18,791 nt of DNA from Candidatus Woesearchaeota archaeon (GTDB lineage: Archaea > Nanobdellota > Nanobdellia > Woesearchaeales > UBA525). Positions 6,031 to 10,329 of the stretch are shown piece by piece; positions within the stretch are counted from its first letter, which is position 1; each line of letters opens with the position of its first letter. The stretch is taken from positions 1 through 18,791 of the forward strand of contig RFKA01000037.1 in assembly GCA_003694385.1 (NCBI GenBank), read 5' to 3'. The position numbers were made by a program, and so were the translations under genes. The notes beneath the pieces are model-generated. The model ran no database searches, was not told where the DNA came from, and saw only the letters and a program-made list of their open reading frames with translations.

Positions 6031-6978
6031 CTACGAGTAGTAACTCGTACGATAGATTTTGTCCAACATAAAAGAAGAGTGGGATTCAATCGATTCCCCA
6101 AAGCGATCCTCCATTTCTTCGATGATGGCATAGAACTGCTCGGGGGACTCAACCTCGATTGTCGGCTCGAGGTTCCACTGAGCGAGAACTTCACGGACAC
6201 TGACCGTGTTCGGTTGCGTGTGGAAGTAGTCAAAGAACCGCTTCTTATGCGCACTATTCTTCAGACGAATAAGCAGCTTGTACGTTGTCAAGCCCAGCTT
6301 CTCAAGGTCTATCGCAACCGTGTATTTCTGCACGATGCCTTGTTGCTCCAAGTTCCTGATGCGATAGGCCACAGTCTTCGGTGTTGAACCAACGATTTCT
6401 GCTATGCGCCGAAGGCTTTGGCGTGCGTTTCGAGCAAGCTCGGAGAGTATCGCTTCGTCGAGTGCATCAGTTTCCTCCTTTCCCGGCGCGTCCACCTGTT
6501 GCGCAAGGTGGATGTTTTTCCCTACAAGGTATTTCCTCCCGAAGAAATACGTCTCTATGGTGAATGATAAGGAAGACGTAGCGAGGTAAGGCGCATAGGC
6601 ATTGAAGACATGATTCTTGAATGCATTAAGCTCATACACGTCATTGACGACAACACCGATGAGGAAATCCCATGAGCCCCTGCACGACGCGAGCTCGCTC
6701 GCTTCGGGGAGCCGCTGCAAGTAGTGGAGTATCTCCTGCTTCAAGGGACGCGTGACATTGCGGAATTTCAGGTAGAACTCGGCATGCATCTTCCCCCTCT
6801 TTGCGAGGCTCACGATAGAAGGATAGCCCTTGATGATGCCTTTTGCCTCCAGTTGCTGGATACGATAATGCACAGATTCTTTTTTTATCCGGGCTCGTTT
6901 CCCGATTGAAGAGAGTGTTTGGCGAGAGTTACAGTCCAGTTCACACAATATTACTCGTTCAGTTTTATGCAAGTCCAT
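6031..6978 (-). CDS. Lrp/AsnC-like regulator with two HTH-RAM units
   Basis: 315 residues from the ATG at 6978. HTH 1 is at about 1-50 (MDLHKTERVILCELDCNSRQTLSSIGKRARIKKESVHYRIQQLEAKGII), followed by a RAM-like alpha/beta region at about 62-150. HTH 2 is at about 171-220 (DALDEAILSELARNARQSLRRIAEIVGSTPKTVAYRIRNLEQQGIV), followed by a second RAM-like region to the end. Ordinary Lrp proteins have one such unit in about 150 residues, so this is a fused tandem. A TATA box (TTTAAATA, about 7000-7007) lies about 25 nt before the ATG and no Shine-Dalgarno is present. The message is therefore leaderless, and longer open-frame starts are excluded. It is divergent from the DUF302-CopA operon and might regulate it. 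The ligand is unknown. Confidence 0.85.
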   Translation of the reverse strand: MDLHKTERVILCELDCNSRQTLSSIGKRARIKKESVHYRIQQLEAKGIIKGYPSIVSLAKRGKMHAEFYLKFRNVTRPLKQEILHYLQRLPEASELASCRGSWDFLIGVVVNDVYELNAFKNHVFNAYAPYLATSSLSFTIETYFFGRKYLVGKNIHLAQQVDAPGKEETDALDEAILSELARNARQSLRRIAEIVGSTPKTVAYRIRNLEQQGIVQKYTVAIDLEKLGLTTYKLLIRLKNSAHKKRFFDYFHTQPNTVSVREVLAQWNLEPTIEVESPEQFYAIIEEMEDRFGESIESHSSFMLDKIYRTSYYS

Positions 6979-6998
6979 ATTAAACAATAAAATAGACT

Positions 6999-7007
6999 TA
7001 TTTAAAT
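6999..7007 (-). promoter_or_regulatory. TATA box of the Lrp-like gene
   Basis: The plus strand reads TATTTAAAT, giving ATTTAAATA on the minus strand. It is centred about 25 nt before the ATG at 6978. The TTTAAA core is palindromic, so it could also serve the rightward copper operon, with a leader of about 150 nt. Confidence 0.5.
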
Positions 7008-7186
7008 GGATTTTCCTTTTGTTAGAATTCTTGTAAGAAAGAGTTAAGTAAAAAGGGTTGTTAGCTACAGTGAAACGGAACAGTTTCAGGAGTGGAAAAG
7101 CAGCGTCACAGAACACCGCACGCGGCCTGATTAGGGCGCACCAACAGTGACCAGCGGAGAAGTGCAGACGGTACTAAGGAGGCGAG

Positions 7187-7570
7187 ATGATGTACGGATA
7201 CAAGAAGACAGTAAACAGGGGGTACGAAGAAGCAGTCCGGAAGACAAAAGAAGAACTGCAAAAAGAGGGTTTTGGCGTGCTCACAGAAATAGATGTAAGA
7301 GCGACGCTAAAAAAGAAGCTCGGCGTTGATTTCGATAACTACCTCATCCTCGGCGCCTGCAACCCGCCATTTGCCCACAAGGCCCTGCAGGCAGAGCGCG
7401 ACATCGGCCTCATGCTCCCCTGTAATGTCGTCGTCGCAGAGCATGAAGGACGTACAAGCGTGTCGGCAATCTTGCCGTCAGTCGCGATGAGCATGATTGA
7501 GAACGAGGAACTGAAGAGTATCGCAGTGACTGTTGAGGAGAAGCTGAAGAAGGTCATCGATAGTGTTTGA
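7187..7570 (+). CDS. DUF302 domain protein
   Basis: 127 residues forming a single DUF302 (TT1751-like) domain. The family core is clear: EIDVRATLKKKLGVDFDNYLILGACNPPFAHKALQ, then GLMLPCNVVV, with C58 and C79 positioned as in relatives. DUF302 proteins are small, dimeric and biochemically uncharacterised. They are often found near metal or sulfur metabolism genes, which fits this position. Shine-Dalgarno AAGGAGG (7176-7182) precedes two consecutive ATGs (7187 and 7190); spacing of 4 or 7 nt allows either. It is the first gene of an apparent operon with a Cys-rich microprotein 24 nt downstream and a Cu(I) ATPase. No signal peptide or membrane segment is seen, so it should be cytoplasmic. Confidence 0.88.
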   Translation: MMYGYKKTVNRGYEEAVRKTKEELQKEGFGVLTEIDVRATLKKKLGVDFDNYLILGACNPPFAHKALQAERDIGLMLPCNVVVAEHEGRTSVSAILPSVAMSMIENEELKSIAVTVEEKLKKVIDSV

Positions 7571-7580
7571 AGGTGAATGC

Positions 7581-7588
7581 AAGGAGGT
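7581..7588 (+). promoter_or_regulatory. Strong Shine-Dalgarno of the Cys-rich microprotein gene
   Basis: AAGGAGGT lies 6 nt before the ATG at 7595. It is one of the best ribosome sites in the window. It is the main argument that the 29-codon frame is translated, and since copA has no site of its own it probably recruits ribosomes for both. Confidence 0.75.
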
Positions 7589-7594
7589 AAGAAC

Positions 7595-7684
7595 ATGGGT
7601 TGTTGCTGCAAAGAGGAGAAAAAAAGCAAGGGGAAAGATTGTTGCAAAGAAGCAGGTGATGAAGAGCACACGTGCTGTCAATGA
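7595..7684 (+). CDS. 29-residue Cys-rich microprotein, putative metal-binding peptide
   Basis: The ATG at 7595 opens a 29-codon frame. It encodes MGCCC, a Lys/Glu-rich spacer, DCCKE, an acidic spacer, then HTCCQ and stop. Seven of 29 residues are cysteine, in one CCC and two CC clusters separated by charged linkers, plus one histidine. It has no hydrophobic core, so folding probably depends on metal binding. A full Shine-Dalgarno precedes it, and its TGA overlaps the ATG of the copper ATPase (ATGA, 7681-7684). The setting suggests a Cu(I) buffer, chaperone or sensor peptide (inference). I do not recognise a named family. A leader-peptide role, in which cysteine-codon translation gates copA, is an alternative. 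Confidence 0.7.
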
Positions 7685-10329
7685 GTCCTGGCAAAGAACA
7701 AGACGGCTTGAAAGACCCTGTGTGCGGCATGGCCGTCGACCCTAACAAAGCGCCATACATGCTTCAGCAAAAAGGGAAGAAGTTCTACTTTTGCAGTAAG
7801 CACTGCTTCCAAGCATTCAGTGCAAAACAAGACGCATCCAGAGAGAAGCACGCAGTTACTCCTGCGAGCAAGGCACAGAGTGTTTCATTCGCCATAAAAG
7901 GTATGAGCTGTGCAAGCTGCGCCCGGACAATCGAAAAGGCTCTTGCCAAGCTCGATGGGGTGAAGGACGCGACCGTGAACTTCGCCACCGAAACTTGCCA
8001 CGTGGTCTTCGAGGGCAAGAGCGACCCCGAGTGCATCGCACAAGTAATCCGAGATGCCGGCTACATACCCATTGATTCGCAGTACCGGCAAGCAACATTC
8101 ACCGTCATAGGCATGAGCTCCGATCACTGCGCAGGTATCGTCAAGGAAACACTAGAGAAATTCGAAGGGGTGAAAAACGTCGAGACGAACTACGCAAACG
8201 CGTACGCGAGATTCTCGTACGACCCCTCGGTCGTGAAGCTCACAGAGCTCAAGAAAGCCATAGATGGTGCGGGGTATACGGCGACACTGCTCGATGAGTC
8301 TGACGATCCACTTGAGAAAGAGGAGGAAGCCAAAGAGAAAGAGATTGTAATGCTGAAGAAAAAACTCTTGCTCTCTGTCGCGTTCGCCCTTCCTGTGTTT
8401 TACTTAGCAATGGCCGAGCTCATCAGCAAGTATTTGATCCCCCCTTTCCTCCGTCCAGAAGCGTTCCCGCTGCGCTTCGCCCTCGTGCAGTTGCTGCTCT
8501 CCATCCCTATCATCATTGCTGGCCACAAATTCTACACGGTTGGCTTCAGGAATCTCGTGAAGCGCACGCCGAACATGGATTCGCTCATCGCCCTGGGAAC
8601 CTCTGCCGCCTACCTGTATGGGCTCTATGCAGTGTTCGAGATTCTCATGGGCAATGAAGCGTACGTGAAGAGCCTCTATTTCGAGACTGCAGGAGTCATC
8701 ATCACCCTCATCCTGCTCGGGAAGTACTTGGAAGCCTTAGCGAAGGGGAAGACTTCAGAGGCTATCAAGAAGCTCATGGGTCTCGCACCCAAAACCGCGC
8801 TTGTCGTGCGCGACGGGAAAGAACAAGAAGTCCCTGTCGCGGAGCTCGAAGTTGGCGACCTCATCATCGTCCGGCCTGGAGAGAAGATACCTGTAGATGG
8901 GATTATCGCTGAGGGAGCGAGCAGCGTCGACGAGAGCATGATTACTGGGGAGAGCATACCCGTCGATAAGAAGAAAGGAGACACTGTTATTGGCGCCACA
9001 ATCAACGTTTCTGGCGTGATACGGTTCACGGCGACAAAAGTAGGGAAAGAGACTGCGCTCGCACAGATTATCAAGCTCGTTCAGGAGGCCCAAGGGTCGA
9101 AGGCACCCATCGCCAGACTCGCCGACATCATCTCAGGATACTTCGTCTGGGCAGTCATGGCTATCGCACTCCTGAGTTTCAGCGTGTGGTACCTGCTTGG
9201 TTTTGGCTTCCTTTTCTCACTAACCGTACTCATCGCCGTACTCATTATCGCGTGCCCCTGCGCACTCGGCCTGGCGACCCCCACATCCATCATGGTCGGG
9301 ACGGGCCTGGGCGCAGAGCAGGGGATTCTCATCAAAAGCGCCGAGGCACTCGAGCAAGCACAGAAAATCACTGCAGTCATCCTTGACAAGACGGGAACGG
9401 TCACAACCGGCACGCCTGAGCTCACGAACATAAAGAGTTTCTCAAAACTGAAGGAAGACGACATTCTGCGCATCGCCTCTTCGATCGAGAAGAACTCCCA
9501 GCACCCCGTTGCTGAAGCAATTGTGGCCGGTGCAAAGAAGCGAAAGGTGCGTATCGGAAACGCTGAAGCGTTCAGAGAGCTTCCGGGGCGCGGCCTCCAG
9601 GGGACGCTGCGAGGAACGCGCTATTTCGTCGGGAACCGCAAGTTACTCGAGGAAAACAACATCGATTTCGAGCAGCACAACAAGACCATTCATGCCTTGG
9701 AGGAACAGGGCAACACCGTTATGTTTCTCGCCAATACGAAAACGCTCCTCGGCATTATCAGCGTTGCAGACACCGTCAAACCAACGTCCCGACAAGCGAT
9801 AGCGGAGCTCAACAAAGAGGGAATAAGCGTCTACTTGATAACAGGCGATAATGAGCGGACCGCGAAAGCAATAGCACAGCAAACAGGCATCGACCCTGAG
9901 AAGGTGTTTGCTCAGGTCATGCCCGAGGACAAGGCAGAGCACGTACGGCGGTTGCAAGAGAAAGGATTTGTTGTCGCAATGGTTGGGGACGGGATTAATG
10001 ATGCACCCGCACTGGCGCAGGCCGACATCGGCATCGCGATCGGCGCAGGGACCGATGTCGCTATTGAGAGCGCAGACGTCGTCCTCATGAAGAGCGATCT
10101 CCGCGATGTGAACAAGGCCATAAGGCTGAGTAGAGCGACAATGAAGAACATCAAGCAGAACCTGTTCCTGTCGTTCGTGTATAACGCCGCGGGCATTCCT
10201 GTGGCAGCGGGGGCCCTCTACCCTCTCCTCGGTTTCCTCCTGAGCCCCATCATCGCCGCAGGAGCGATGACGGCAAGCTCAGTCAGCGTCGTCACGAATG
10301 CATTAAGGCTCAAAAGCATAAAGCTCTGA
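7681..10329 (+). CDS. copA: Cu(I)-transporting P1B-type ATPase with YHS and two HMA domains
   Basis: 882 residues from the ATG at 7681, which overlaps the preceding stop. A GTG nine bases earlier is less likely. The N-terminus has a YHS/TRASH-like metal site (C15 in DPVCGM, then C38 and C42 in FYFCSKHC). HMA domain 1 has an intact GMSCASC (C77, C80). HMA domain 2 is degenerate, GMSSDHC, with the first cysteine changed to serine. The ATPase core has the transmembrane CPC at 525-527, phosphorylation motif DKTGT at 569-573, an HPVAEAI nucleotide site, GDGINDAP at 769-776, and YN plus MxxSS in the last helices, the pattern of P1B-1 copper pumps. It exports cytoplasmic Cu(I) using ATP. No separate Shine-Dalgarno is seen, so translation probably depends on coupling to the microprotein gene. 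Confidence 0.96.

Follow-up and report, generated by a model that had tools for sequence, protein, structure and literature searches.

An 18,791-nucleotide stretch of a Candidatus Woesearchaeota archaeon (order Woesearchaeales; contig RFKA01000037.1 of assembly GCA_003694385.1; hereafter the window) carries, directly ahead of the copper pump gene copA, a 29-codon frame whose product has seven cysteines. The frame is very probably a gene, because peptides of this type are also present in two further families of the order, and the product is probably a real metal-handling peptide that has so far gone unnamed. The locus is a variant of the archaeal copA operon not described before, with an unnamed and patchily distributed peptide. 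In our judgement there is an even chance that the frame is translated as part of a cassette for copper homeostasis and that its product acts in trans as a cytosolic Cu(I) buffer and shuttle feeding CopA. That the frame is translated, that its product binds a metal, that this metal is Cu(I) and that it is passed on to CopA are inferences.

A seven-cysteine microprotein ahead of copA

The window belongs to a genome (G000) of 889,737 bases in 130 contigs that is 86.7% complete. Three genes form a single array on the plus strand, namely a DUF302 gene (7187..7570), the 29-codon frame (7595..7684, ATG to TGA) and copA (7681..10329, from ATG 7681), while a regulator gene is divergent from them on the minus strand. 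The microprotein and copA share the bases ATGA, in which the stop of the one overlaps the start of the other. The coordinates, the frames, the CCC, CC and CC clusters and this overlap are all as the preliminary description had given them.

The predicted 29-mer (MGCCC..CC..CC) is hydrophilic with a pI of 5.6. It had no match in Pfam or NCBIfam at E ≤ 0.001, hence none to a TRASH/YHS or metallothionein profile, in agreement with the earlier statement that no named family was known for it. Ahead of its start lies AAGGAGGT, with the ribosome site GGAGGT at 7583..7588 on the plus strand. The calculated pairing with the archaeal anti-Shine–Dalgarno (anti-SD) sequence of the 16S tail is -11.4 kcal/mol; of 3000 positions drawn at random from the window, 0.5% reached -11 kcal/mol. 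Among 26 candidate starts, some of which are not at true start codons, three scored better (those of CBS, of a position beside the Hsp20 start and of 13860) and that of Cdc48 tied with the microprotein site, which bears out its earlier description as one of the best in the window. A longer alternative frame begins at ATG 7577; we place the start at 7595 because the relatives support it.

Relatives of the peptide were found in two other families. In G076, which belongs to another family of the order, a DUF302 gene (matching at 67%) is followed by the peptide MGCCCGSKKKEVKERRSCCQVEDDVQSGGEE and by copA (71%). The peptide has 31 aa, reads MGCCC..CC and is preceded by GAGGTGA; its stop and the GTG start of copA have GTGA in common, a 4-nt overlap, and this CopA is without a YHS domain. 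In G085, of a third family, the peptide on the copA contig is MGCCCNGKGQEDKKERNGCCGDSEGGDDRKDCCND (35 aa, CCC/CC/CC), with AGGAGG ahead of it; next come a membrane protein (~80 residues) and a TRASH-like protein (65 residues) ending SCCH. The YHS-copA gene of G085 lies ~3 kb from the peptide, and the regulator, divergent from copA, lies between. A further peptide, MKEHNCCKENKENKEHECCNNKGKSGKKYHSCCCNKEVM, with the clusters CC/CC/CCC, is present in the copA operon of G166, where an HTH protein that appears ArsR-like by eye is followed by the peptide, a TRASH-like protein ending GGGCCG, a membrane protein, a 53-residue DUF7128 protein and YHS-copA. As its cluster order differs, common descent is not claimed for the G166 peptide. 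The term TRASH-like, for the proteins of G085 and G166, reflects sub-threshold Pfam and NCBIfam matches only.

The initial M, the G and five cysteines are unchanged across the peptides of the window, G076 and G085. At six aligned invariant codons (G2, C3, C4, C5, C16 and C17; the invariant G21 was excluded, its alignment being less sure) the third positions differ in five of the six codons, and the first and second positions in none of 12. Change at third positions only is a mark of selection on the residues, and the synonymous/nonsynonymous check that the preliminary description had named reveals coding constraint, in few codons.

These data bear on the simplest alternative, a chance frame that is not translated. 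Cysteine-rich frames do arise at random: 4 of 200 dinucleotide-shuffled windows had an ATG frame of 20-45 codons with at least seven cysteines, and in the order 65 of 73 places read that fit the MGCCC pattern were judged not credible. None of the same 200 shuffles had such a frame together with a ribosome site, however, and given these shuffles, the relatives in the same context and the synonymous-only change we regard a chance frame as extremely unlikely.

In a scan of the copA flanks, peptides counted if they had four or more cysteines including a CC, a charged composition and an SD-like site ahead. Of the 352 genomes of the order, 228 match copA at E ≤ 1e-100; from among the matches listed, 109 loci besides the window were scanned, which after removal of two duplicates are 107 distinct places. 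MGCCC peptides were found at two of them (G076 and G085) and a CC/CC/CCC peptide at one (G166). The scan reached 1.4 kb upstream on average (counted to 1.5 kb, in some cases 2.5 kb), so other or remoter peptides may escape it, and the G085 peptide was caught only owing to the longer stretch taken there. A profile built from the window and G076 peptides matched 26 of the 352 genomes at E ≤ 1, with only G000 and G076 below 0.001; among 371 genomes of the phylum it matched five at E ≤ 0.02, and the strong ones were again G000 and G076. The other matches were discounted for their weak E-values only. The negatives of this profile carry little weight because it missed the G085 peptide, which came from a plain pattern search as well as from the flank scan.

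The pattern ATGGGNTGYTGYTGY occurred at 74 places in 64 of the 352 genomes by our count, whereas its reversed form, the control, gave 10. Of these places 73 were read, and eight were judged credible by hydrophilic composition and ribosome site, namely the window, G076, G085 and five tiny poly-Lys peptides; composition and ribosome site were also the grounds for setting the other 65 aside. With GAGG ahead, the pattern was found at 41 places in 40 of 336 genomes (five in the control); all 41 were read, one partly, and nine were credible, including one further poly-Lys peptide (G173). The patterns used gave no credible MGCCC peptide in four genus mates and four other family mates, several of these genomes being incomplete. 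In 623,992 bases of loci, a set that overlaps and was selected for copper genes, there were 34 distinct ATG frames of 20-45 codons with at least six cysteines, and five had a ribosome site: the window's own, one in L082, and those of L034, L070 and L071, which belong to a different family. Among the literature matches listed, no MGCCC peptide beside copA was described.

The copA start and the proposed role of the peptide

The CopA protein shows a CopM-like YHS domain (residues 11-50), HMA in two stretches, of which the first has CxxC and the second is degenerate, and an E1-E2 ATPase domain in Pfam. The core motifs CPC, DKTGT and TM8 MxxSS are present, and together with an N-terminal CxxC HMA domain we take them to be the signature of a P1B-1 copper ATPase. 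The match to TIGR01511 scored 641.7 bits (cut-off 397). By profile and motifs, CopA is a copper-type pump.

The copA ATG at 7681 pairs weakly with the anti-SD (-2.1 kcal/mol). An in-frame alternative, GTG 7672, lies nine bases 5' of it and is served by an SD-like AGGTGA located inside the microprotein gene (-9.4 kcal/mol). The earlier claim that copA is without a ribosome site of its own thus holds for ATG 7681 and fails for GTG 7672. Likewise, the preliminary description held that ribosomes finishing the microprotein probably start CopA; the overlap is certain and recurs in G076, but the dependence of copA on it is not certain, since with an SD-like site at GTG 7672 copA need not rely wholly on coupling. 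In a single predicted fold of 326 bases, calculated without shuffled controls, the copA ATG is mostly open, with paired bases just 5' of it. The frame might be a coupling device only, delivering ribosomes to copA while the peptide has no function. The good ribosome site and the overlap fit such a device, but conservation of the cysteines is at the level of the residues and not of the DNA, and G085 retains the peptide at a distance from copA; we consider this very unlikely.

The frame could instead act in cis as a leader or sensor, in which Cu(I) is bound by the growing peptide and copA initiation depends on the translation or stalling of that peptide. The overlap, the weak context of the copA ATG and the paired bases just 5' of it would suit a leader, and copper-responsive upstream frames do exist. 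CruR (a DUF2946 protein; PMC9426467) and CutF (PMC9973294) are, like the microprotein, small Cys-bearing frames ahead of copper genes, but they have a signal peptide, a C-terminal Pro-rich arrest-like motif and a mechanism through Rho or a stem-loop, none of which was seen here. By eye the microprotein has no signal peptide, and on reading the four peptides we found no proline-rich or RAPP-like arrest motif. In G085 the peptide stands ahead of other small genes at the distance given above, with the regulator in between, which weakens the "translated sensor" of the preliminary description, and three small genes separate the G166 peptide from copA. Because these two peptides lie apart from copA, a role as copA leader cannot be a general one, and we hold the leader or sensor reading to be unlikely.

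The reading as a trans-acting Cu(I) buffer and shuttle was reached because a bare thiol peptide occupies the small-gene position of archaeal copper clusters. In the proposed cassette, an Lrp-like regulator would be divergent from an operon that ends in copA. The product would be a cytosolic, highly charged peptide whose CCC, CC and CC thiols bind Cu(I); it would buffer Cu(I) in trans and shuttle it to the YHS and HMA sites at the N-terminus of CopA. The copA overlap of this genome may help the co-production of pump and peptide.

The closest known counterpart is CopM (CopT in copRTA). It is a TRASH/YHS copper chaperone: the archaeal copTMA clusters encode this small TRASH protein (56-71 aa in S. 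metallicus) ahead of copA, the two genes are cotranscribed, and copM2 and copA2 overlap by 11 bp (PMC3595675), and archaeal copper clusters have a gene for an Lrp-like HTH-TRASH regulator nearby, which in P. furiosus is divergent from copA (PMC3595675, PMC7830388). The microprotein resembles CopM in being a small thiol protein whose gene lies 5' of copA, with an Lrp-like regulator gene nearby, and an overlap with copA is also known for one copM. It differs in having no TRASH/YHS motif, the domain being part of CopA here. The degenerate copM primer of PMC3595675 translates to DPVCGM, the YHS-domain motif that is here fused to CopA. The peptide may thus fill the slot of CopM upstream of copA, with the YHS domain of CopM fused to the pump. 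The peptide gene lies directly upstream of copA in the window and G076 and not in G085. YHS/TRASH mini-proteins are found in place of the peptide in G073, G060 and G083, as expected if both fill one role.

Vicinal cysteine pairs are classic ligands of As(III), for example in ArsD, and they count for another reading, in which the thiol peptide is merely co-regulated with copA and serves redox protection or the binding of another soft metal or a metalloid, such as As(III), Zn, Cd or Ag. Cysteine clusters also end peptides at ArsP-type permeases in the same order. All three MGCCC..CC peptides found, however, sit in copA loci with a common regulator, and CopA is copper-type by profile. We consider this alternative rather unlikely.

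A comparison may also be drawn with the short copper metallothioneins, in particular fungal CuMT with 25-26 residues, seven cysteines and CxC spacing. The microprotein is a small hydrophilic chain of similar length and likewise has seven cysteines, but they are adjacent (CCC, CC, CC); a sequence relation is not claimed.

Several observations weigh against the Cu(I) buffer and shuttle. The vicinal cysteines fit As(III), Zn(II) or redox roles as well. The G076 peptide has five cysteines and not seven, the last CC pair being lost, and the G085 peptide is not adjacent to copA. The constraint test is small, with three sequences and six codons, and the GGAGGT of the microprotein is predicted to be paired in the same 326-base fold. 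The distribution is patchy, and the conservation check proposed in the preliminary description comes out both ways: three genomes keep the M, the G and the five cysteines, but 104 of the 107 other copA places are without such a peptide. Of the earlier interpretation, the analysis supports what looks like a real gene, a cysteine pattern shared by relatives, the overlap with copA (in two genomes) and the absence of a Pfam or NCBIfam family; it weakens strict coupling and the sensor, and DUF302 is no obligate partner. If the Cu(I) buffer and shuttle is true, small-genome archaea shrank a metallochaperone to ~30 residues and placed it at the start of the pump's gene, which would account for Cu(I) handling in organisms having few annotated chaperones.

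Regulator, promoter and DUF302

The divergent gene (6031..6978, minus strand) encodes a 315-residue Lrp/AsnC-like double winged-helix regulator. In Pfam, HTH_24 and an HTH_AsnC-type domain are above cut-off and AsnC_trans_reg is just below it; the protein thus has two HTH domains and an AsnC-like stretch, with three cysteines. The Pfam scan found no TRASH/YHS domain in it, whereas the archaeal CopR/CopT regulators combine an HTH with a C-terminal TRASH domain.

The copA loci of G076 and G085 hold regulators 62% and 65% identical to that of the window, the only relatives above 60% among the loci examined for it. When 18 chosen genomes were searched in full, G073 (59%) and G083 (58%) joined them, with other matches at 30% or less and no relative in G166. 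In a set of 5.8 billion proteins, 18 regulator proteins matched at E ≤ 1e-40, the window's included. Of the five genomes with a regulator at 58% or more, three have an MGCCC peptide and two have CopM-like mini-proteins. What accompanies the MGCCC peptide throughout those three genomes is this regulator, not DUF302. In G083 the regulator diverges from two mini-proteins of TRASH/YHS type, one a Cys mini-protein of 62 residues and the other a YHS mini-protein, with copA ~3 kb on; no MGCCC peptide was found within the 20 kb read. The G073 regulator lies at the end of a contig; at the end of another contig, an operon has a Cys mini-protein followed by DUF302 and a YHS mini-protein (ending GGCCCH).

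Between regulator and operon, a putative archaeal TATA box, TTATTTAAAT, was recognized by eye at 6998..7007 on the plus strand. The inverted repeat TGAAACGGAACAGTTTCA at 7071..7088 (no strand) is a candidate operator and is absent in G076 and G085. A shared operator was looked for in the divergent promoter across the window, G076 and G085 and was not found.

The leading gene (ATG 7187, plus strand) encodes a DUF302 protein of 127 aa that is an ordinary member of PF03625 (TT1751, PDB 1j3m), at 1.9e-26 and 92.2 bits with a cut-off of 23. Cys58 and Cys79 are present in all 92 aligned DUF302 sequences, the window's included, and align with cysteines of the solved relatives 1j3m and 1q9u, which suggests a two-cysteine metal or redox site as a fair guess. 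No DUF302 function, in copper handling or otherwise, was reported among the literature matches listed.

Close DUF302 relatives (E below 1e-30) are present in 11 of 96 other genomes searched, and DUF302 at E ≤ 0.001 in 19 of 97 with G000 counted. A P-type ATPase lies in the flanks (up to 5 kb) of 18 of 80 DUF302 loci, and there was no MGCCC peptide among the frames listed for those 18. Seven of 11 neighbourhoods of the close relatives in the order contain a P-type ATPase. The link between DUF302 and copA is recurrent but separable. As part of the joint system first proposed, DUF302 leads the operon here and in G076 too, but it is not obligate, as those 18 loci and G085, where it is on a different contig from the peptide, indicate.

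The gene that follows DUF302 in the operons of G073 and G060 encodes a YHS mini-protein ending GCCCH or GCCH. YHS mini-proteins near DUF302 (L026 716-886, L027 8088-8267, L029 5739-5903) end GCCCH, SCCH or GCCH. Similar cysteine tails also end TRASH-like proteins in L082 and L316, with GGCFG in L072.

Cysteine-cluster peptides beyond copA

A search of PF03773 (ArsP_1) in 97 relatives was prompted by the DUF302 locus of G023, where a CCC peptide precedes an ArsP-type permease. A match was present in 38, of which 35 were above cut-off. At 13 of the 30 ArsP loci read (L255-L264, L266, L268 and L269), a peptide of the type MxKKKGFFxKLxEKLDKKLEEKSKKKxCCC... stands at the start of the permease gene, for example at L255 1334-1450 and L262 1322-1447. 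These peptides have 34-47 residues, though the longest frame of one has 67; each combines a stretch rich in Lys and Glu with cysteines clustered at the C-terminus. All 13 permeases have an in-frame start no more than 18 bases from where the peptide stop codon ends; 11 can overlap and two abut. The genome of the window has such a peptide itself (L255, contig C32), and L270, with a peptide ending CSCECSCSKK, reads as a fourteenth case. Two of the peptides were tested in Pfam and NCBIfam and gave nothing above cut-off; a 41-residue one had no match in the protein set, which may reflect the length limits of gene calling.

The ArsP, poly-Lys and copA peptides make a cysteine-cluster class plausible, the types being grouped by pattern and not by homology. 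Somewhat short of an even chance, we think, is the proposal that the order uses a class of microproteins, CopA-linked (CCC/CC/CC, ~30 residues) and ArsP-linked, as thiol carriers made together with the transporter that they load, and that these are minimal counterparts of CopM/CopZ and ArsD skipped by gene finders. If true, there would be a class of proteins beside metal transporters that is shorter than the usual gene-calling length. The ArsP-permease pattern is broader and more novel than the copA case.

The poly-Lys peptides, MGCCC or MACCC(C) frames of 15-21 residues with strong ribosome sites, occur in six genomes of the order (L317, L320, L335, L343, L353, L367), and no copA was noticed among the neighbouring frames listed. 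At YHS-copA loci, a DUF7128 protein (Pfam) is encoded in L315 at 1509-1670, the same as in L082; it is Cys-rich, and its gene ends close to the copA start. Proteins similar to it by tblastn are likewise near the YHS-copA start in L070, L079, L081, L088, L096, L097, L105 and L110, and these DUF7128-type proteins have 51-70 residues. Another family near copA, in L070, L071 and L278, has 37-42 residues and the pattern C..T...KLC.ML..C.C....CC, with a CC pair and basic residues at the end.

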